From: Acidobacteriota bacterium
GTDB lineage: Bacteria; Acidobacteriota; Terriglobia; Bryobacterales; Bryobacteraceae
DNA: 64,000 nt
Assembly: GCA_025354885.1 (NCBI GenBank)
Contig: JANXLY010000105.1
Coordinates: 1-64,000, forward strand
Direction: 5' to 3'
Part shown: positions 30,259 through 58,700 of the stretch, in pieces
How the letters are laid out: each line of letters opens with the position of its first letter
Numbering within the stretch: position 1 is the first letter of the stretch
Made by a program: the position numbers and the translations under genes
The notes under the pieces: generated by a model
The model's database searches: none
The model's input: the letters and a program-made list of their open reading frames with translations, nothing else
Told to the model about the DNA's origin: nothing

Positions 30259-31007
30259 AAGTTACCTCCAAAATCGAATGTCCGATCAGCGTGCATCGGC
30301 TCCTTCGTAATCGCCCAAGTGTTAGCAGGGAGATTTACTCACAGAGTATAGCGGATGGAGATGTGGTGCGGGGAAACTTCAAATGGCAGCTGATTTAAGA
30401 CAAATATCGGGCCTGGAGATACATCGCGATCTGCCACACGCGCTCTTTTGCGAATCCTTCGGATCTCAGCAAATACAGCGATCTCGAACAACTCTTCAAA
30501 CTGCGACGAGCAATTAGAAACGCGGTTTAGTTCTTCAGTCACTTCAGCTCGCGCCCTGTCCAGCATCGCGTTCCGCTAACCCAAAGACGAATTTATTGGG
30601 TAGTGTTGTCGAAAGAAGCTGAGACGAAGAACACCTGATGACGCGATCCATAGAGAGCTACGCTGATGCTTGGTAAGTTATGGATTCTGTTTGTGGCGCG
30701 AGTGAGCGATCTGGGGTAGGCGCTAAGCCACCGATACAAAAAGACACATTGGAATGGCTCCCCATCGTGGACTCGTTTCGAACTTTTTCGGCTTGCCTGC
30801 CGCTGGCGATCAAGGCGTTTCTTGATCAGGTGCGCGAACTTGCCGTCACCTGAGGAGCAGTCCGCTGCACAAGGTGGCCGAAGCTGCCGGCTCGAACTTT
30901 GCCGCGAGACGCACGCGTTTCTTGAGAAGTTGCAATAAGAAACCGCCACCTTCTCGCCAGCCTCAAAAGACGCGCAATGACCTTGCGGACCCAAATTGAG
31001 ATACCTT
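30259..31007. other. Intergenic stretch with one short copy of the dispersed repeat
   Basis: No gene with convincing codon pattern was found. A 39-base copy of the island repeat lies at 30755-30793 (ggctccccatcgtggactcg then tttcgaactttttcggc). Short open frames of 75 and 133 residues on the minus strand have no recognised motif; the longer one simply translates the repeat copy and its surroundings. Confidence 0.5.
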
Positions 31008-31304
31008 ATGCAGTATCATCTATTCGGGTCTGCAGCCCCTAAGACTCTCCAGAAGATGCGCAGAAATCAGGCTGGCTGGAGCATCGACACGTTGCAATCG
31101 GTTGCGGTCGAAAATGGTGTAGGCTGGCGAAGACCAGGGAACGGCGGCAGCCACGTGATCTTCAGCGCTTCGGGAGTTCGCGAGATCGTATCGGTTCCGG
31201 CGAAGCGACCGATTAAGTCGGTTTACATCAAACAGTTTCTGGCGCTGATCGACAGTGCAGTGGAGGTGAAGCAGGATGAGAACAAGAACGAATCGAAACC
31301 TTGA
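31008..31304 (+). CDS. hicA: HicA-type toxin (mRNA interferase)
   Basis: A 98-residue protein matching the HicA dsRBD-like fold, which cleaves mRNA. The core WRRPGNGGSHVIFS carries the catalytic His (in GSH), and the ending VSVPAKRPIKSVYIKQFLALID is typical. An N-terminal stretch, TLQKMRRNQAGWSIDTLQSV, is seen in the longer HicA subgroup. Start codons at 30996 (TTG), 31008 (ATG) and 31056 (ATG) are all possible; I prefer 31008. It overlaps hicB by 29 bases, the usual arrangement. Confidence 0.88.
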   Translation: MQYHLFGSAAPKTLQKMRRNQAGWSIDTLQSVAVENGVGWRRPGNGGSHVIFSASGVREIVSVPAKRPIKSVYIKQFLALIDSAVEVKQDENKNESKP

Positions 31305-31653
31305 CGCATACCAGTTCACCGTCCGCCCGCTTTCGAAAGAAGAGGGTGGCGGTTACCTGGTGGAGTACCCCGATATCCCCGGTTGCATGTCCGACGGCGA
31401 GACAATTGAGGAAGCGATTGCCAACGGCAGGCAAGCACTGCGCGACTGCGTTGCGGTGTTCCAGGAGTCTGGCAGGAAGGTCCCGAAGCCGGGTATTGAA
31501 GCGGCACAATGGCGCCAACGGGTCCCTCGCACGCTCTACTCAAAACTGACTCTGCACGCGGAGAATGAGGGAGTGAGTATTAACAGCTTCGTGACCGCGA
31601 TTATCGCCGAGGCGATCGGAGCCAGACAGGCGAACACAAACAAACGCCGCTGA
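31276..31653 (+). CDS. hicB: HicB-type antitoxin
   Basis: A 125-residue antitoxin that binds HicA and represses its own operon. The N-terminal RNase-H-like HicB domain shows GGYLVEYPDIPGCMSDGETIEEAIANG. The C-terminal part (VPRTLYSKLTLHAENEGVSINSFVTAII) is a ribbon-helix-helix DNA-binding domain. The start lies inside hicA, so translation is coupled. Confidence 0.9.
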   Translation: MRTRTNRNLDAYQFTVRPLSKEEGGGYLVEYPDIPGCMSDGETIEEAIANGRQALRDCVAVFQESGRKVPKPGIEAAQWRQRVPRTLYSKLTLHAENEGVSINSFVTAIIAEAIGARQANTNKRR

Positions 31654-31823
31654 GGACCGCAGCCAACGCAGGGCCAGCCATCAAACCTCTCTGATTTGAA
31701 GAACACGCCAAAAGAGTTCGAATCCATATTGGGTAAACGCAAGAAGGCTGAAAACTCGCAAAACTTGGCCTGACAAACCCAATGGAATCAATTGGATAGA
31801 AGGGAGTGCGAGAATTTACAACT

Positions 31824-31973
31824 GGCTCCCCCCCACACTGGACGCATTTTGAACTCTTGCGGCGTAACTCCCCTCCGCTCAAACCGAGTCAACTCCTTTG
31901 CACTAGTTGGCATACAGTCGAGAATCACAATCTCGTCCGGGCTGGGCACTCAACTTGGATGAATCTCGAAACT
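31824..31973. repeat. Island repeat, copy 2 (about 150 bp)
   Basis: It begins ggctcccccccacactggac and continues gcattttgaactcttgcggc, then a stretch with ccgctcaaaccgag, and ends with a second block (gggctgggcactcaacttgg). The same order and spacing are seen at 34262-34413 and 37003-37151, with about 70-80 percent similarity by eye. Confidence 0.7.
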
Positions 31974-32159
31974 TTAACTCGAAAATCGGCACTGATTGGC
32001 CTTTGCACATGGCGACAAAACCAGATGGCCTCCCGATACCGCCTCAACGAGTACTGATCTCTCTGGCGACCAGTGAGTTTTGCATCAAGCAGAGAAAAGC
32101 TAGATGGTGGACCATCGCAAGCACAGGGTAGCCTCGGCCACGGAAACAGCAGCGACTCC

Positions 32160-33616
32160 CTACAGGGTTCTCAGAAACGCGATCAGATCCTTGCGGTCAT
32201 CCGGCGGTATCCTGAGCCCGAATTCATGGCCCTTGATGGGGCCCGGACCAAGATGAAAGCCTTTCGCTACATAGTTGTCGTTCAGTCGTGCCGGGTCAAA
32301 CCATTCCTCAAGCGTTTCCGCCCAGCCCCCATGGCCAAAAGCATTGCGGTACCACACGCCGCGTAATGAAGGCACTTTGTAGAATCCTGTCCCGCGCCTG
32401 GTCTTGAGGGCAAGGGTCGGGTCTGTCCCCACGGAAACATTCAAGACGTCGCCCGACTTGAGAAGGTCGTCCGGGACGCTGAAGCCTGTGGCCGGTGTCA
32501 GCTTGTTGTTCGTGTACAGCGGAGGAGTGTGGCATCCGGCGCAACCTTGCTGCCCGAAGATGCGCTGGCCGCGGCGGACGCGATCGTCAACCCGGTTCGT
32601 GTTGGGAGGAGGCTGAAGCGATCCTATGCAGAGTGCCATGGCGTAGAGTTGTTCGTCGCTATAGCGCGTGCCGTCCTCTGCCGCAACCGAAGAAGTATGT
32701 GCGCTCGGCCGGAAATCCCCGTATTCAGCCAGCATGTCCAATCCCGAGTTGATGACTGCATAACGCATCAGATCACCGATCGAACGGTGGCGTACCAGCC
32801 CGGTTGCATCGAGAAATCGGATATCCTGAATGCCGATCAGCGACGGTGCATGGACCGGGTGAGTCAGGCTCGTGCCCTGCCGGGGAAACACGCCATTCCG
32901 TGACGCCTGGAGAAGTTTGGTGTACCAGTCGATCGTGACGAGTTCGCGAAACGACTCTTTACTCTGCACCCAGGGGGCGCCAACACGAGCCCAAAGCGCG
33001 TCCTGCAAGTCGCGCAATCGTTCCGGCGTCATCCCGGCCGAAGAGCCGAAGAGCCTGACCATTCCCTGGGCGCCTTCGAGAAGTGTTCCGTCCGGCATCA
33101 CGCGGGTGTGGCATGAAGCGCAGGAACGTCTGCCAAGCTCCACTACTCCTTTTTTGCGAATCACGAACTTGCAAAGAAGGTAGGGACAGCTCCATCCTTT
33201 GTCGTTGGCAAGTTCCACACTTCAGGCGGCACCACCTCTTTCGGAGCAGCCGCAAAACTGACGTCGGATTCGAAGACCAACTTCCCGGCCTCAATCCAAT
33301 CCTCCTTCGTCCGCAGTTTGGACGGATCGAAAACGATCTCGGGCTCTTTCTGCTCAAGTGATTTCCTATAGCCGACGGGTTCGCGGCCCGGTAGATAGGT
33401 GGGATAGCTTCGATAAACTGGCCGTACCCGCAAGGCGTAGTATTCCTTGGCCGTCATGTAGCGAGGGGAACGGTCCCTTTGAGCCAGGGGCAGCTCGAAG
33501 CGCTCAACCTCTTTGTCGTCCCACACTTTGGGAATATCGGGATGGAAGGTTTGCGCAGTGCCCCTTCCCGCGACCGTAAGAATAGATAGTGCAATGAAGC
33601 ATGCAGTGTGTCTCAT
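32160..33616 (-). pseudogene. Di-heme cytochrome c / oxidoreductase-like gene with a frameshift
   Basis: Two overlapping frames together encode one exported c-type cytochrome of about 480 residues. The first part (start 33616, signal peptide ending GRGTAQ) runs to VPPEVWNLPTTKDGAVPTFF. The frame then shifts near 33173-33180, and the second part continues KFVIRKKGVVELGRRSCASCH. Two heme-binding motifs are present, CASCH and CAGCH (in QQGCAGCHTPPLY). The arrangement recalls acidobacterial di-heme proteins related to cytochrome c peroxidases and DHO-type oxidoreductases. One missing base explains the break. If it is not a sequencing error, the heme domain is no longer exported. Confidence 0.7.
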
Positions 33617-34173
33617 ATCTCCCCTGGATGCTCGTGCCTTGCGAAAGCGGCAAGCGCCTGACGATCATATCATCCGAGTGCCGAAAACAGGGCCGTGTTT
33701 CGCACAGAGCGCTCGGCTCGAAGGCGTCAGCTTACTCTGCGGTGGCCGCAGGCAAGAAAGAACCAATGCCAGCCAGGTTGGGTGCCTATTCGACTCTGAA
33801 ACTTTTCCAGATGGCAACTGTTGTCGTTTGGCTGCGGGGTTTGGATCAAGAAACTCCCTGGACTTGATGCCGATTTGGCGCCCGGACATCTAGCGCGTGG
33901 CCGTGATGAAGCCGCTGGAATCTGCGGAGGCTCCCAATCTGGATCATGAGATCGTGATGCTCCAAAAGTCTTCGATGAACTGCGGCGCAAAGCGCAGGTT
34001 GGGAAATAAGCTCAGGCGCCGCTAATGGCTGAACGACCTCGTAAGCAAGTTATTGGAAATGTGTTCTTCGGATAGGGCGCGGTTGGTCGGCCAACCGGAA
34101 CTTATCCGCTGCTTTGGTTATTGGGCTGTTATCTGGCTGAGTGAATAAACTGCGTATCGGAGAGTGAGGTTCC
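33617..34173. other. Intergenic stretch, possible decayed repeat
   Basis: No gene was recognised. Bases 33773-33802 (ccaggttgggtgcctattcg and onward) resemble the second block of the 150-bp island repeat, but weakly. Short frames here have no motif. Confidence 0.4.
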
Positions 34174-34236
34174 ATACCCCAGTCAGGACTCGAACCTGAA
34201 CACAAAGGACTTAACCGATTCTTCCACTTCGCGGCC
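34174..34236 (-). other. tRNA 3'-end-like sequence (copy A)
   Basis: Read on the minus strand, TCAGG-TTCGAGT-CCTGA is a perfect T-arm, followed by CTGGGGTA as an acceptor-like end, and is preceded by GGTTAAGTCCTTTG. No matching 5' acceptor strand or complete anticodon arm is found, so it is not a functional tRNA gene. Such 3' fragments are typical scars of elements that integrate in tRNA genes. A related sequence lies at 38231-38285. Confidence 0.5.
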
Positions 34237-34261
34237 TTATGATTTCAATGGGTTGGAATTT

Positions 34262-34413
34262 GGCTCCCCAGTCTGGACACGTTTCGAACTTTTGCGGCCT
34301 AAATCCCCATTCGCTCGAACCAACAAGACTCTTTTGTTCACAAGAGTATCTGGCCAGAAATCACCTCGCCATCCAGGCTGGGCACCCAGGCCGGACGCAT
34401 CTCGAACTGCGGA
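34262..34413. repeat. Island repeat, copy 3 (about 150 bp)
   Basis: It starts ggctccccagtctggacacg then tttcgaacttttgcggcc, continues with cattcgctcgaacc and ttttgttcacaagagtatc, and ends with ggctgggcacccaggccgga and catctcgaactgcgg. It aligns with copies at 31824 and 37003. It ends about 90 bases before the next gene start. Confidence 0.72.
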
Positions 34414-34504
34414 AGTGTACCACCTTCAGCCCAGCCTCCGAGTCGCCAATTTGGCCACGTTGACCAGTACGAATATTCTGCGTACACTCGTACCTGTGCG
34501 AACA

Positions 34505-36838
34505 ATGATCTCTCTTTGTACGTTGCTGTTCGCCGCAACTGCTGGCTTCGCCGCCGAGAACCCCCAACTCGTGTGGTTGGCCCCGCTCCCCAACACCCGC
34601 TTGCCTGATGGCCGGATCGGGGCAGTGGATTACATGAACCTTTTCAGTCCGGCAGCCCCTTGGATATCGGCTGCATCGCGCGTCCAGGTGTTCAAGATCT
34701 ATGCGTTGTTCAACCCAGCTCTTCCAGGGGCCTTGACCGACAGCCAGTGGCGGCAGCTTTTCGCCGATCTCGACCGGCGCGGAATTGCTCTGGCGCTGGA
34801 GTGGGGGCCGCTGTTGAATACGACTTGCGGCATTGGCGTGGAGGGATTCGGGGATGCCAGCGCGCTAACGACAATACAGAAAATCAAGAGCTTGGGCGGG
34901 AATCTCCGGTATCTGGCGATGGATGAGCCCTTCTACGGCGCAAGTATCTTCAATGGGGCGAATGCTTGTCAGTGGACTCCAAAGCAGACCGCCGCCGACG
35001 CGGTGCGTAATATCGCTCAAGTCCGCGCGATTTTTCCCAATGTCATCGTTGGGGACATCGAACCCGCACCCCCTCCAGGTGCACCAGATTGGGTGCAAAG
35101 GTACACGGAATGGCTCGACGCGTGGAAAGAGGCGGCGGGGACTCCGCTCGCCTTCTTCCACCTCGACGTGAACTACCCCTCCTTTCCTAATTGGGTCAGC
35201 GATGTCGACCCCTTCCGCCGGGTATTGGCTGGCCGCAGTATTCCCTTGGGAGTAATTTACAACGGCTTGAGCGCAAAGACTGACTCGGACTGGATGCGCG
35301 CCGCCGAAGATCACATCTTCCAGTACGAGGTGCTGGGCGGCAACAAACCGGAACAAGCAGTCTTTCAGACTTGGGAGTCACTGCCCACGCATGTTCTGCC
35401 GGAGACTGACCCGAATGCCCTCACCTATCTCGTCAATCGTTATTCCCGGCGGAGAACGGCGATTTCCCTAACTTCGACGGCCACTCAGGTGTCGGGGAAG
35501 CTGTTGGACAACCAAGGCAATCCGGTCGCCTCCAGCACGGTGGACATCACGCTTCAGCCTACTGCCGGGCCTGGGTTTGTTTCCACCTACACACTGACAG
35601 GCAAGGTTCCTGAAGTCGCCACGCGGGTGACCCAGGGCGTGCTGCAAATCTGCGTGAACGAGTGTGGAAGTCAGGGTCCTAACGACATGAACCTCTATTC
35701 GTACCGCTATGCGGACTCAGGGATGAATGCCGCCCAGGATTTCTCGAAGGGTCTCACGGGATGGGCTATTCCGCCCCCGCCGAATCGTACGGCGTCCGTG
35801 CAACTGGTCTCCGACTCCACCGGTCCATCGCTCCTGATTAAGGCCACGCCTACCCAACACACGTTTGTGAATTCCACGTTCTTCCCTATTACCCCAGGCA
35901 GCACGTTCACCTTGACGGTGCAAGCCCGCGTCTCGCCTGCCTCGGTAGGCAGCGGCTATTTCGCGATGATTTTCCTCGACGCGACCGGGGGGAGTCCCGT
36001 GCCACGCGTCACGCTTCCCTTTGCGCCCGGAATCTCCCGACTCGGCAGCCCGCGCACTACCGGCGATGGAACCTACAGCCTGGTATTTCCAGCTCAGCCC
36101 GCCGGATCAATGCGATTAGATGCCTCCTTCGCGGGCTCGGACACTTTGTGGCCGGCAATTGCCAGCGCGCCACTTGGGAACATCCCAGCAATCAATGCCA
36201 ACGGCATCGTGAACGCCGCCACCTTCCAGGTGACGCCGCTTTCCCCTGGCGCCTGGTTCAGTATCTTCGGCCAGAACCTCGGCGCGGCCGGGCAGTGGGC
36301 CGAGGCGAATACGACTGCCTTGGGCGGCGCCGAGGTTTCCGTCTGCGGCCTGTCGGCCCTTATGTCCTACAACTCCGGACCGATTACCAACAACGGGGCG
36401 ACGGGTTGGCAGATCAATGCGCTAACGCCAGAAGGAGTTGCGGGACAAAAGTCGTGCCCCGTGCTGGTCACGGTGAGCGGCGTGGCCGCGCCGCCCGCAA
36501 CCGTGACCATTGCCAGCGGTATTGCCGAGCTGTTCTCCTTCACGTCCCAAGCCGGCGTGTTACCCATCGTCTCCCACGCCGACTACAGTCTGGTCGGACC
36601 CGCCAGCGCTGGGCTCGTTCCCGCCAAGCCCGGAGAGATGGTGATCGCCTGGGGAACCGGTGATTGCGTGACGCCCGCGGTCACGGTCGCCGGCAGCGCC
36701 GCCATTGTCGCCTTTGCCGGACAGGCCGGGCCCGGTCTCTGCCAATTCAACTTCGTCGTCCCGCATGGCGTAACCGGCGGCACAGACTTGAGAGTCTCGA
36801 CCTCGCCCACCCGTTACACGCTATGGGTCTCGCCGTAG
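34505..36838 (+). CDS. Secreted protein with C-terminal TIGR03437-like domain
   Basis: A 777-residue exported protein. I chose the ATG at 34505, which opens a clean signal peptide (MISLCTLLFAATAGFAAE); the longer open frame upstream only reads through the repeat. The N-terminal 300 residues look like a TIM-barrel-type fold (FADLDRRGIALALEWGPLL, then LRYLAMDEPFYGASIF), possibly glycosidase-like. A beta-sandwich region follows. The last 215 residues (AINANGIVNAATFQVTPLSP, SIFGQNLGAAGQWAEA, GWQINALTPEG and LCQFNFVVPHGVTGG) match my memory of the TIGR03437 domain, which is expanded in Solibacter. Function unknown. Confidence 0.75.
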   Translation: MISLCTLLFAATAGFAAENPQLVWLAPLPNTRLPDGRIGAVDYMNLFSPAAPWISAASRVQVFKIYALFNPALPGALTDSQWRQLFADLDRRGIALALEWGPLLNTTCGIGVEGFGDASALTTIQKIKSLGGNLRYLAMDEPFYGASIFNGANACQWTPKQTAADAVRNIAQVRAIFPNVIVGDIEPAPPPGAPDWVQRYTEWLDAWKEAAGTPLAFFHLDVNYPSFPNWVSDVDPFRRVLAGRSIPLGVIYNGLSAKTDSDWMRAAEDHIFQYEVLGGNKPEQAVFQTWESLPTHVLPETDPNALTYLVNRYSRRRTAISLTSTATQVSGKLLDNQGNPVASSTVDITLQPTAGPGFVSTYTLTGKVPEVATRVTQGVLQICVNECGSQGPNDMNLYSYRYADSGMNAAQDFSKGLTGWAIPPPPNRTASVQLVSDSTGPSLLIKATPTQHTFVNSTFFPITPGSTFTLTVQARVSPASVGSGYFAMIFLDATGGSPVPRVTLPFAPGISRLGSPRTTGDGTYSLVFPAQPAGSMRLDASFAGSDTLWPAIASAPLGNIPAINANGIVNAATFQVTPLSPGAWFSIFGQNLGAAGQWAEANTTALGGAEVSVCGLSALMSYNSGPITNNGATGWQINALTPEGVAGQKSCPVLVTVSGVAAPPATVTIASGIAELFSFTSQAGVLPIVSHADYSLVGPASAGLVPAKPGEMVIAWGTGDCVTPAVTVAGSAAIVAFAGQAGPGLCQFNFVVPHGVTGGTDLRVSTSPTRYTLWVSP

Positions 36839-37002
36839 TATGGCCCTGCATGCGCCGTGCGCCGCCCAAATGACCGTAATGTAGGGGAATGCGGAGCCTC
36901 GGGCTCCGCGAAGGAGTTCGAGTCCACACTGGGGCCTCATTGGCGTTCGAACCGGCAAGTTGAAGAGACAAGAAAGGAAAGTCGGAAAACGGCGAGTTGG
37001 GG

Positions 37003-37151
37003 TGCCTCCCCACACTGGACGCATTTAGAACTCTTGCGGCATAAATTACCCTCTGCTCGAACCGAGATAATTTCTTTGTTCACAGGGGCATCCGCGTTAA
37101 ACCGGTAGGGGCGTCCAGGCTGGGTGCCCAACTGGGCAAATCTCCGCGCTG
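37003..37151. repeat. Island repeat, copy 4 (about 150 bp)
   Basis: It starts tgcctccccacactggacgc then atttagaactcttgcggc, continues with ctctgctcgaaccgagataa and tttgttcacaggggcatc, and ends with ccaggctgggtgcccaactg. About 95 bases before it, gttcgagtccacactgggg (36913-36931) is an inverted look-alike of the start of the repeat, so the two could pair as a large hairpin. Confidence 0.72.
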
Positions 37152-37228
37152 GAGTAGGCAGATCTACGGCTTGACCGCCTCAGAATGTTCAGGAGGTGGA
37201 GAGTCCATGCTATAGCTGGTTGTACGAA

Positions 37229-38194
37229 ATGTCGACATTTTGGCGCAGTGATCACCTTGATCTCTCCGATTCTTTGAATGAAACAATCTGGTCCGATTCT
37301 CCAGATGAACAACTCCTCATTCAGACGCCGGACTCCGTTCAAGCGGCGAGTGCCATCGGAGCACAGCAGTGCATGGTCGATGGGCTTGAGAAGCCCCTTC
37401 CGTGGGTGCCAGACCTGGTGGGGTTGGGTTGGCAGCAACCCGAAAGCCTCATAGTCATTGGCTCCGCATATGCGCCATTCATTAGGGGCTTATCGAAGCG
37501 ACGTTGCACTATGCCATTGGCCGATTATGTAGACGCTCGGTCGGCAAGCCGCTTTCTTTCGAAGTTTCTTGAAAGCGTGGTCATACCTGACACGTCTTAC
37601 TACAGTAAAATTGCCTTGCTGGCTGGCGATCTGGGAACGCAGCAACGCGTCATTATATTTGATCTATGTCGCGCCAGCTACACGATCCGAGGCTCTCGCA
37701 AGGCCGGGAATGATCTCGACGGTGCCGCAGAGTTCACCTTCAAAAACACCATTCGTAACCAACGGGATGAAGCCCGTGCGAATCAATCACGGCGACTTTT
37801 CACTGCGTATGTCGAGTCAAAGAAGCAACGCGAGTGGACCCTTGAACGCCTCGCTTTGTCGCGTGCGCGGAGAATCGTTACGCTTGGAACTATTGCCGAA
37901 TACGGTTTCCTCAAGCTCCTCTGGCACTCAGGCATAAAGACGATCCACCGGATGAGGAATCCCAATGCTGTCTGGTCACCAGATGCCAGCCACGGAGACC
38001 AGTGGATGCTCCGATATGCTGCCAAGGGTCAGACGTTGGAGAAGTGGCTAACCGACAAGGACTGGTGGATCGTCAAGGGCCGACTTAAAAGCGATGAGCG
38101 CGAGTGGCACGTACTTCCAGTCCTTCATCCGGCGGCGCGGAATTCTACGGACATTGATTACCTCAGAACCCGTGCACTGATCATGTCCATGTGA
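37229..38194 (+). CDS. Orphan protein of unknown function, faintly uracil-DNA-glycosylase-like
   Basis: A 321-residue soluble protein from the ATG at 37229. An in-frame GTG at 37196 overlaps an AGGAGG and is less likely as a start. No signal peptide or membrane segment is visible. Three features recall the UDG fold: LIVIGSAYAPF (early strand plus loop), RRIVTLGTIAEYGFLKLL (middle) and WHVLPVLHPAARN (the HP motif in the late loop). The similarity is too weak to claim catalysis. It stands alone between island repeats and a tRNA-like scar and could have arrived by transfer. Confidence 0.6.
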   Translation: MSTFWRSDHLDLSDSLNETIWSDSPDEQLLIQTPDSVQAASAIGAQQCMVDGLEKPLPWVPDLVGLGWQQPESLIVIGSAYAPFIRGLSKRRCTMPLADYVDARSASRFLSKFLESVVIPDTSYYSKIALLAGDLGTQQRVIIFDLCRASYTIRGSRKAGNDLDGAAEFTFKNTIRNQRDEARANQSRRLFTAYVESKKQREWTLERLALSRARRIVTLGTIAEYGFLKLLWHSGIKTIHRMRNPNAVWSPDASHGDQWMLRYAAKGQTLEKWLTDKDWWIVKGRLKSDEREWHVLPVLHPAARNSTDIDYLRTRALIMSM

Positions 38195-38230: not shown

Positions 38231-38285
38231 TATACCCCAGCTAGGATTCGAACTGCAAACCAAAGGGCTAAGCGATAAAGCGGCC
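38231..38285 (-). other. tRNA 3'-end-like sequence (copy B)
   Basis: On the minus strand the sequence GCAGTTCGAATCCTAGCTGG then GGTATA resembles a tRNA T-arm and acceptor end, but its T-stem is no longer perfect. It aligns with the copy at 34174-34236 (accccag, then gga-tcgaac, then caaag and cgat and cggcc). No 5' half is present. Confidence 0.4.
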
Positions 38286-38896: not shown

Positions 38897-40092
38897 GTTC
38901 TTTGACCGCTTGAAAAGATTCTGATAAAACATTTGAGTGCTGAAATGTTTCAGGGCATACTTGGGTAAGCCCCGGCCTCCCATGCAAATCCGGCTTTCTT
39001 CTAAGGATCGCCAGCAATTGCAAGATCATCTCAGCGGCGGCGTACAGCCTGTCCGGTCCGTCCTGCGGGCTCTGGTCTTATTGCAAATGGCGGATGAGGT
39101 CAGCGCTTCGCAGATCGCCCGGTTCGTTCCGCTGACCGCCCAGGCTATCCGGAAGGTGGGACACCGGTTTGAGCAGGGCGGGTTGGATCGCGCCTTGTTC
39201 GACAAGTCTCGTCCTGGCGCCGCCTCTTTGCTTGACGCCGCCCAGCAGCAACGGATCATCGCCATGGTCTGCAGCGAACCACCGGTTGGCCGGAGTCGCT
39301 GGACAGTACGCCTGGTGGCTGAGGAAGCCGTCAAACGGCGACTGGTTCCCCGCGTGGGTAGGGAAGCAATTCGAGTGATGCTCCTGAGCCACGACCTTAA
39401 GCCGTGGCGGGAAAAAAATGTGGTGCGTTCCGGAACTGAATGAACGCTATGTGGCTAATATGGAGGATGTCTTGGCCGTTTACGAGAAACCGTACAACCC
39501 CGAGCAACCGGTGATTTGCTTAGACGAAAAGCCCATCACCCTTCACGGGGAAGTCCGTCCGGCGACGGTGGCTCAGCCAGGACGGGAAGCCCGACGCGAC
39601 AGCGAATACGAGCGCCGCGGAACAGCCAACGCCTTCCTGGCCGTCGAGCCGAAAGCAGGCAAGCACTTTTGTTTTCCGACACCGGACCGATCCGGGTTTC
39701 AATTCGCGCAGGTCGTACTGGAACTGGTCATGTCGTACCCGGATGCCAAGAAAATTCACCTGGTGATGGACAACCTCAATATACACTCCAAGAAGTCGCT
39801 CACCGACGCCTTCGGACTAAAGATGGGTTCCCAAGTTTGGCGGCGATTCGCTATCCACTACACGCCAAAGCATGGCAGTTGGCTCAACCAGGCGGAGATC
39901 GAGATTGGCATTTTTGCCAGGCAGTGCCTCGGAAAACGCAGGATTCCAGATCTTCGAACCCTGCGCCGTCAGTGCAAGGCCTGGGCGCGGCGAATCAATA
40001 AGGCCGGCACGAAGATCGATTGGAAGTTCGACCGTAAGGCAGCCAGAAAGACATTCGGCTACAAAAGGAACTCTTTCATGCGGTCAGAGAAC
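38897..40092 (+). mobile_element. IS630-family insertion sequence, 1196 bp
   Basis: The inverted ends are visible: left gttctttgaccgcttgaaaa from 38897, right (reverse complement from 40092) gttctctgaccgcatgaaag. They match at 17 of 20 positions. The element is flanked by TA on both sides (38895-38896 and 40093-40094), the target duplication expected for IS630. It encodes a transposase in two frames. It sits exactly in the mutL stop codon without changing it. Confidence 0.88.
38982..39443 (+). CDS. IS630 transposase, N-terminal part
   Basis: A 153-residue helix-turn-helix region that binds the IS ends. VSASQIARFVPLTAQAIRKV is the HTH, followed by a second winged-helix part (VGRSRWTVRLVAEEAVKRR). 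The ATG at 38982 (MQIRLSS) is preferred over one 15 codons upstream. The frame ends just after a run of seven A (39412-39418), where the second frame takes over, so a fused product needs a frame change. Confidence 0.85.
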   Translation: MQIRLSSKDRQQLQDHLSGGVQPVRSVLRALVLLQMADEVSASQIARFVPLTAQAIRKVGHRFEQGGLDRALFDKSRPGAASLLDAAQQQRIIAMVCSEPPVGRSRWTVRLVAEEAVKRRLVPRVGREAIRVMLLSHDLKPWREKNVVRSGTE

Positions 40093-40095
40093 TAG
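39418..40095 (+). CDS. IS630 transposase, catalytic DDE part
   Basis: A 225-residue frame with the DDE catalytic core: CLDEKPI (first D), HLVMDNLNIH (second D) and SWLNQAEIEIG (E). MWCVPELNERYVANMEDVL continues smoothly from the first frame's LKPWREK, so both are one protein. To join them the ribosome or polymerase must lose one base or step back two in the A7 run. The stop codon TAG uses the target TA plus one flanking base. Confidence 0.87.
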   Translation: MWCVPELNERYVANMEDVLAVYEKPYNPEQPVICLDEKPITLHGEVRPATVAQPGREARRDSEYERRGTANAFLAVEPKAGKHFCFPTPDRSGFQFAQVVLELVMSYPDAKKIHLVMDNLNIHSKKSLTDAFGLKMGSQVWRRFAIHYTPKHGSWLNQAEIEIGIFARQCLGKRRIPDLRTLRRQCKAWARRINKAGTKIDWKFDRKAARKTFGYKRNSFMRSEN

Positions 40096-55721: not shown

Positions 55722-58700
55722 TTAGAACATCAGCCGCAGCGCGAACTGCGTGCGCCGCTGTGTGCCCTGCTGCGTACCCGTGATCACGCCGAAGTTGGGA
55801 TTGCCCTGGGTGTTATTCGGGCGATCATACTGCGGAGTGTTTGCCAGGTTGAAGGCTTCAGCGCGGAATTGCACTTTGAAGCGCTCGCTGATGTTGACTG
55901 CTTTGAACAACGAGAGGTCAAGATACTTCTGACCAGGCTGGTTGTTGCTCTGCAGACCAAGGTTGCCATTGGTACCAGGTCGCGGTGCAGTGACTGCGCT
56001 GGTGTCGAACCACTGAGCTGCCCTACGGCCGCCTGAGGGTTCGCTCTTCGGATCCTTACCTGCAACTACATCGGGAGTACAGAGGCTAAAGCTGCCGACG
56101 CAGTTATTGGTTCCGAGCGTAAAGGGCGATCCCGTCCGGAGGGTCAGAATGCCGTTCAATTGCCAGCCGCCAATTACGGCGTTGGCCGGCCGGTTGGCCG
56201 AATTCATGAAGCGCTTACCCTTGCCAAAAGGCAGGTCATAGAGAAAGCTGGACGTCATGCTGTGGCGAATATCCCAGGCGGCGCTGGAGTAATTCAGACC
56301 GTAATCGCGCTGATCCTTGGACCCGAATCCGGCAGAACCGCTGAGCGTAGTTCCTGAGTTCGACAGAGCATGACCATAGGTGTAAGCGACCAGGTATTGC
56401 AAGCCGCTCGAATAGCGCTTTTCCCACTTGGCAGTGAGGCCAGCATAGTTACCAAAGCCAAAAGTGGTGGTGTTATTCACACCAGCAATATTAGGAACGG
56501 GCCGGCGAGCATTGGTGTTGATGTCCGGACGCGGATCGTTGACCGCCGCGTTGGGATCGGAAAAGAAGAGCTGGTGTGCCTGGCGGTTGCCAACATAAGC
56601 CAACTCAAAAGCGTTACCGCCGCGGAACTCACGCTGTAGGGAAAAGTTCCACTTGTGTACGAGAGGATTGCGGAAGTTCTGTGCCACAGAGCGGAAGCTT
56701 ACCGGAGCGTTCAGCGAGAATACATTCACGGGGAAGCCGTTCTGGACCCCGTTGAAGAACTTGTTCTGTTCATAAGGTCCAATGCCGATGCGGTCCAGGT
56801 TAGTCGTTTGATTAAACGGTACACCTTCACCACGGTTGGGGTTGCCACCCTGATTCTCTTCGCCACCGTAGAAGATGCCGTAGCCGGCACGGATCGCGGT
56901 CTTGGGGTTCATTGCATAGGCGAAACCGATGCGGGGGGCAATGCTGGTTTTATCCCAGGGGATAAGATAGCTGCTCACTTCGCCTCGTGAAACTTTCACG
57001 TTGGCAAAGTCCGTAGCAAAGTTCGGAGGTAGTTTGGCGTCTTGGTCCTTACCCTTGGGGATAAACAAAGTCAGCTTGTCAAAGTCAAAATTCGCCTGAC
57101 GACCAAACTTCTCGTCGATCGGCGAAAACAGCTCATAACGAATACCGTAAGTGATCGTCAGCTTGGAGTTGAACTTCCAGTCATCTTGCGCATAGAAAGC
57201 CCAGGCGGACTTCTGTGACGAGATGAAGTTGGTGGTAGAAATCTGACCGTTCGTAACTTGACCAACCAGGAATGAGGCATAGCCATCACCGGTATTGTTC
57301 CTGAGATTGTCTAAGCCGTTCGGGAAGGAAGTTTCGTTACGGTTGAAGCTCCAGTTACCATGCGGGCTTGGGAACTGGAAGAAGGGGAACTTGATGGGCC
57401 GGAACTCTGCGCCAAACTTAAGTGAGTGCTTGTTCTTCTGGATCGCCACGTTCTGGATGAAGTCCCAAACGTTGTTGTACTCTTTTGAAGGCAACCAGTC
57501 TGACGCTCCAAAGCCGCTGTAGCGGTCGATGTTGGTCGACGGGAGGCCGCCATTCAGAGGACCTGTAGGATTGTAGCCTCCAATACCGAAGGCCTTGAAT
57601 TGGTCGGTATTCGGATCGGCCTGCGTGCGGGACGTGACCAGGCGGCTGTAGCCAGCGCGAGTCTCAGTTACAAAGTTGGGCGACCATGTGCGCGTGTAGC
57701 TGAGCATCGCATTGCGGGCCAGGTTCTGTGCAACATTGGAATTGAAATAGGTAGCATCAAGCGCACCCGGCAACGGCTGACCGTTGATCAGGTTGTTGTT
57801 CGACCAACTCACACTACCAAAGATGCTGTCTTTTTCACTGATGCGGTGGTCAGCACGGATGTCGAATTGCTTCGTTCCGGCGGTACCAGATGTCGTGGTG
57901 AAGTAGTTATTCTCAGGAAATCCTGGAAGCACAGTCACATTCGGGGCTGGGAACAAATTCACCAGCTTCTGCGCTACGGGGTCAATGCGGTTCGCTGGGA
58001 TCCGGTTGCCAGGGAATGGCGTACGGCTCAGTCCAGTTGTGCCATTGGGATAAGTCACTGTGGCGTTAGAGCGTGGATCGTATATTGTGCCTTCGAGAGC
58101 ACTCACACCAAGGGAGTTAGTGATCGCCTTGTTGGTAGCAGTGAGTGCCGAAAAATCTCCGGTACGCATCGCTGCCGTGGGGATCGTAAAGAACCCGGAG
58201 GTACCCAGACCAGGAACAGCGCCACCCGTGGAACGGATTTCAGTGCCCTGATAATCAGCGAACCAGAATGTACGATTCTTGATCACCGGACCGCCGATTG
58301 CGGCGCCAAACTGATTCTGTTTGAAAGGACCGCGCTTCACACCATTGCGATTATTCTCCCAGCGATTGGCGTTCAGCTTATCATTCTGCAAGTATTCAAA
58401 AAGCGAACCATGAATCGAGTTTGTACCGCCTTTGATCGTGACGTTCACAACGCCGCCAGCGCCACGGCCATACTCGGCGTTGTAACCGTTGGTCATGACA
58501 CGCATTTCGCCAATTGCTTCTACCGAAGGTCCAATAACGAAAGAAGTCTGGTTGAGGAAGTCGATCACGTTTACGTTGTTATCGACGCCGTTCAACAGAA
58601 AGTTGTTTTGTCCATTCGAACGGACACCGTTAGCTGAAAACCCTCCACCTGTAGCATCGCGAGCGCCAGGCTCATTCGGCACCACACCCGGCGACAAGCG

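Follow-up and report, generated by a model that had tools for sequence, protein, structure and literature searches.

Repeats resembling a tRNA 3' end in Bryobacterales are probable attachment sites of serine-recombinase islands

Results

A repeat with a constant core and two kinds of tail

The window, by which we mean the whole 64,000-nt stretch of Bryobacteraceae DNA analyzed, contains an array of four repeat copies (c1 to c4), all on the + strand, with cargo genes between them. The features of the array are:

30755..30853, + strand: c1, core (30755-30784) and coding-like tail WLPIVDSFRTFSACLPLAIKAFLDQVRELAVT followed by a stop; read as the putative cut-off 3' end of a gene for a large serine recombinase (LSR), and as a left attachment (att) site
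30996..31304, + strand: HicA-like toxin, cargo (PF07927, 6.6e-05, 23.4 bits, under the curated cut-off of 27)
31276..31653, + strand: HicB-like antitoxin, cargo (PF15919, 3.4e-09); the HicAB module is common to loci L072 and L235
31660..31822, + strand: right-end module of the HicAB unit, in common with L235 and L072 up to TGG and different beyond; holds an S1 element (31716-31734)
31823..31973, + strand: c2, core and group-1 tail (mid block and block B)
32160..33218, - strand: cytochrome c family protein, cargo (PF00034, 1.2e-06)
33161..33616, - strand: ORF beside the cytochrome protein, cargo (no Pfam match)
34174..34237, - strand: remnant resembling a tRNA 3' half, upstream of c3, seen by eye (uncalled by ARAGORN and Rfam; related module in L044)
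34261..34413, + strand: c3, core (34261-34290) and group-1 tail
34430..36838, + strand: 802-aa ORF, cargo (no Pfam match)
36916-36934, + strand: S1 element before c4, GTTCGAGTCCACACTGGGG
37003..37151, + strand: c4, core (37003-37032) and group-1 tail
37196..38194, + strand: 332-aa ORF after c4 (no Pfam match)

All four copies begin with a common core, TGGCTCCCCANNNTGGACRCGTTTCGAACT on the + strand, and continue in a tail of either of two kinds. The group-1 tail of c2, c3 and c4 is ~120 nt long and consists of a mid block and block B, which partly repeats the core. The group-2 tail of c1 is 32 codons and a stop, ending at 30853; c1 has only the first block in common with the other copies and then its own continuation. 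The four copies reported in a preliminary description of this DNA were borne out by nhmmer (20 bits for c1 and 148-153 bits for c2, c3 and c4, the latter scores not being independent because the model was built from these three copies). Pattern searches, which are independent tests of the copies, also found them, with a chance expectation of ~0 (0.00 and 0.01). A suspected fifth remnant at 33773-33802 scored 5.6 bits (E 0.31) and is unsupported. The minus-strand peptide RKSSKxVxxGE, pointed out earlier as conserved, is antisense to the meaningful frame, which is on the + strand and reads W-L-P-x-[VL]-D-[AT]-F-R-T.

Two other features lie to the right of c4. A second T-arm-like stretch, ATACCCCAGCTAGGATTCGAACT (38232-38269), resembles the one before c3. 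Just right of the array (38937-40095) are HTH and DDE ORFs (PF13565, PF13358) that look like an IS630-type transposase.

The sites form arrays with a single orientation

We found hundreds of copies of the core in Bryobacterales MAGs, and copies in some Fermentibacteria and Kofleriaceae. The family had been described as confined to one accessory island. It is not: first-block copies are also present on two other contigs of the same genome (C152 and C284 of G000), and 16 of the 101 genomes searched, this one counted, carry copies. In the named-genome collection, more than 116 stretches among the matches listed contain copies. These are mostly from Bryobacterales/Solibacter MAGs, with others from Candidatus Sabulitectum, Aegiribacteria, Fermentibacteria, a Kofleriaceae bin and elsewhere.

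We surveyed 264 sites in 141 non-redundant loci. Neighbouring sites had the same orientation in 123/123 pairs (0 opposite), some of these pairs being a core plus its own block B. Spacing was mostly 0.5-3 kb, with 1-2 foreign genes between sites, and toxin-antitoxin genes recurred as cargo. Among 91 cargo proteins PIN domains were commonest (8), and HicB, MazE, Phd and nucleotidyltransferase members were found too. In a Fermentibacteria array (L233/L234), the GC3 of the cargo was low relative to the flanking chromosome. Most arrays sit on MAG fragments, and few tRNAs were seen near them.

Sites that all point the same way, intervals of one or two genes, recurring toxin-antitoxin cargo, modules common to different neighbourhoods and the low-GC3 Fermentibacteria cargo are all features of an integron-like cassette array, in which the cores would act like attC and a recombinase supplied in trans would shuffle single-gene cassettes. 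We consider this unlikely. The attC boxes (RYYYAAC...GTTRRRY) occurred in 0/202 regions, compared to 2.9 in shuffles; no conserved fold was found for the group-1 element, and S1 and core showed no covariation. IntI was above the cut-off in Fermentibacteria only, with none in the Acidobacteriota array genomes tested, and the LSR and tRNA evidence described below accounts for the site itself. The IntI-like integrases of Fermentibacteria (L260, L261 and L262; above the TIGR02249 cut-off) have an N-terminal extension of ~90 aa and lie away from arrays.

The inverted look-alike of the core, from which hairpin formation had been suggested, is real. This element, S1, is T-arm-like, is inverted relative to the core and has a second copy in the window at 31716-31734. 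It was found no more than 260 nt upstream of 46/210 sites, compared to 9-10 in controls. Regarding the hairpin, S1 and core could pair in 31/40 cases; the centre of the pairing did not covary. A structured RNA or regulatory element, also raised in the preliminary description, would fit the conservation of an intergenic sequence. This explanation is the least probable of those considered and we give it almost no weight: RNAalifold found no consensus fold (only -0.78 on 72 copies), the covariation check was negative, Rfam gave no meaningful match, and the interval genes lie on either strand (66 on that of the site, 49 on the opposite one).

Modules break at the TGG of the core

The left border of the repeat is sharp. 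The HicAB module of the window and its ~160-nt right-end module are also present in L235 and L072, and homology stops at TGG. After this TGG, L235 has a core with a different tail and L072 has no core. A VapBC module (L041, L046, L132, L091 and L177) gives the converse picture: these loci are alike from TGG rightward and differ to its left, except for the near-identical pair L132/L091. Core variants track the right-hand tail and hardly the left module. The border, the uniform orientation and the module breaks are visible in the sequence itself. Because modules break at TGG and core variants go with the tail, the unit appears to run from a core through its cargo to just before the next TGG.

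This bears on the suggestion that the repeat is a non-autonomous mobile element. The relation to mobile DNA stands. The stand-alone repeat is unsupported, as it is the interval, rather than the repeat, that would move, and a check for target-site duplications around copies found none. A MITE or IS end copying itself around the genome would be expected to look like a ~150-nt conserved element with an inverted partner, as the repeat does with S1. Yet no terminal inverted pair was detected, orientation is never mixed, the tail differs by subfamily and no transposase recurs beside the element, which makes this explanation highly improbable. A possible resemblance to the oriIS of IS91/ISCR was set aside, as no transposase of that kind recurs beside cores. 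Separately, in L263 and L264 (G114 and the same-genus G003), a tyrosine recombinase adjoins a gene that by eye looks like an IS91-like transposase.

The core resembles a tRNA 3' end with five extra bases

The likeness of the first block to a reversed tRNA T-arm proved to be a real clue. The sequence TGGCTCCCC is the reverse complement of the tRNA-Gln/Asn 3' end GGGGAGCCA. With five bases (NCGTT) removed, a choice made after both sequences had been seen, the core matched tRNA-Gln(UUG) at 20/20 positions and, among the 32 tRNAs compared, a tRNA-Asn and a second tRNA-Gln at 19/20. The motif bound by the zinc ribbon of serine integrases is 5 bp nearer the centre in attB than in attP (Rutherford et al. 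2013, PMC3783163). The core shows this 5-bp displacement relative to tRNA-Gln. Given this rule and the tRNA match, the core has the appearance of an attP half-site, with a tRNA 3' end as the attB of the same LSR. The target sequence TGGCTCC(CC) is present at both island ends in L169 and in Kofleriaceae G102; the sites in the window are in tandem.

LSR genes end at tRNA genes and LSR remnants read into cores

We found LSR genes (Resolvase, Recombinase and zinc-ribbon domains) that end inside tRNA genes. In G102, an intact 518-aa LSR (56892-58448) ends ...NTEI/WLRQTG (NTEI/WLRQTGLNRRPSD, then a stop) inside the 3' end of a tRNA-Asn. On a phage contig (L302), an LSR likewise ends inside a tRNA-Gln(UUG) with the 3' end GGGGAGCCA. 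The LSR frame runs into the TGG at the tRNA in both cases. G102 also carries, in order, an LSR remnant ending ...SRKSKI/WLP, a core with WLPLVDAFRTFCVAPTAEMKSVFNELRAVAA and a stop 2.9 kb on, and the intact LSR 5.8 kb further.

LSR remnants were also found at cores. In L152, an LSR C-terminus (EYRQPFD...LEN; E about 5e-05) leads into WLPVVDAFRT with no change of frame, and this frame stays open through the tail up to the stop. LSR frames enter TGG in L302, L333 and L152. The LSR remnant of L144 is frameshifted and extends as far as the core. In L169, 1.4 kb of other sequence lies between a core and a remnant that resembles an LSR tail, and a tRNA-Gln is found there too; since the remnant may be only the tRNA's own translation, the tRNA is the more secure part of this case. 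These junctions and remnants are seen in the sequence. LSR traces adjoin only a few of the 264 sites.

Many tails are coding-like (32 codons and a stop). The group-2 tail had an excess of variation at third codon positions (P=0.0016, possibly inflated because the tails had been preselected for an open frame and a stop) and therefore has the look of a gene's 3' end. Judging from the sequences, this gene is most likely an LSR. The preliminary description had allowed that the copies might be 3' remnants of one known gene family, and this has largely emerged, in the form of LSR 3' ends that would be cut exactly at the attachment site. No intact LSR was found that carries all of the WLPxVDAFRT tail in a single frame, and the tail peptide had no relative in the plasmid and phage collections. 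We rejected a small conserved protein as the source of the tail: almost all copies are preceded by unrelated sequence, and no intact gene with the tail in a single frame was found. One locus does not fit simply. In L327, a near-complete genome, a weak core match is followed, ~75 nt further downstream, by the start of an LSR (1556-1589 and 2-1480), an arrangement opposite to that of the LSR-island model.

Some sites are next to phage genes. In L270 and L230, prophage genes lie after the core, and in L250 a phage integrase ends 34 nt before the core, as if the core were the att site of a temperate phage with a tyrosine recombinase or PrimPol and the arrays were prophage scars. This is very unlikely. 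Among the 30 loci listed for homologues of the L250 integrase, a core lies within ~1.5 kb only at its own locus; the PrimPol relatives L302 and L303 have no core beside PrimPol; and a second tyrosine recombinase, of 308 aa, which is present in 20/101 relatives and absent from G000, has a distribution that does not follow that of the arrays. A PrimPol/D5 helicase phage is found right of the core, at a distance of a few bases to ~1.3 kb, in three IMG/VR contigs (L270/L271, L230 and L231); its relatives L302 and L303 sit elsewhere.

Discussion

We think it probable that each copy is the left attachment site, together with the severed last LSR codons, of an island whose LSR targets a tRNA gene, and that repeated insertion built the array. 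The target would be the 3' end of a tRNA-Gln(UUG) or tRNA-Asn gene. The first bases of the repeat, TGG(CTCCCC), would be that 3' end on the opposite strand, CCA included, which would explain the sharp left border. NNNTGGAC-NCGTT-TCGAACT would be the attP half-site of the island, that is, tRNA sequence with the outer motif shifted out by 5 bp. The att site would overlap the 3' end of the LSR gene (...W/LPxVDAFRT...stop), so that insertion would put the last ~32 codons at the left end of the island and the body of the LSR gene at its right end, bordering on the tRNA or on the following island. Islands entering one after another at this spot would accumulate in a single direction, and decay would have reduced most of them to one or two cargo genes between sites.

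In the window, the cargo would be HicAB, the cytochrome c protein and the ORFs of no assigned family. No LSR match was found in the window and no tRNA gene was called there; its array would be decayed. Read as left att sites with severed LSR codons, the copies leave the earlier interpretation partly supported. LSR islands do not account for the group-1 tail (block B) or for S1.

From these arrangements we infer recombination, splitting of the LSR gene and repair of the split gene in a circle or an array. If the tail is needed, insertion would split the LSR gene, and the circle or the next island would restore it, as in SSV-type integrases (PMC8371274). A broader idea is tentative, and we hold it to be possible but somewhat doubtful: that there are bacterial "suicidal" serine integrases, with attP in the last ~32 codons of the LSR, whose genes are split by insertion into a tRNA gene and restored by the circle or a tandem neighbour, and that integrase-less islets consisting of sites only, moved in trans, could have produced integron-like single-gene arrays in several phyla with no integron.

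LSR islands would account for a repeat that occurs widely among little-studied soil bacteria, and TGGCTCCCCANNNTGGACRCGTTTCGAACT would be an exact sequence marker for delimiting small mobile islands in MAGs. Integron-like toxin-antitoxin arrays could arise without integrons. If gene splitting occurs, control by self-splitting, as known from the tyrosine integrases of archaea, would have arisen independently in serine integrases.

The arrays share same-direction sites, one- or two-gene units and toxin-antitoxin cargo with integron cassette arrays and CALIN, and differ from them in having no attC boxes and, in the Acidobacteriota genomes tested, no IntI above the cut-off. Genomic islands in tRNA genes (Islander, PMC4383910) likewise target the tRNA 3' end, with the tRNA intact at one end, a displaced fragment at the other and same-direction accretion; their integration is described as usually the work of tyrosine integrases, in contrast to the serine recombinase proposed here. 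Known LSR islands and phages (PMC3783163) have the same Resolvase, Recombinase and zinc-ribbon enzymes, the 5-bp shift of the outer motif and directional insertion. They differ from the islands proposed here, which would have as their target a tRNA 3' end with its CCA and a site overlapping the LSR 3' end, and which would be stacked in arrays. As in the archaeal SSV-type "suicidal" integrases (PMC8371274), the att site would lie inside the integrase gene and insertion would split that gene. The SSV-type enzymes are tyrosine recombinases, whereas the enzyme here would belong to the serine recombinases and the swap would involve only the final 32 codons or so.
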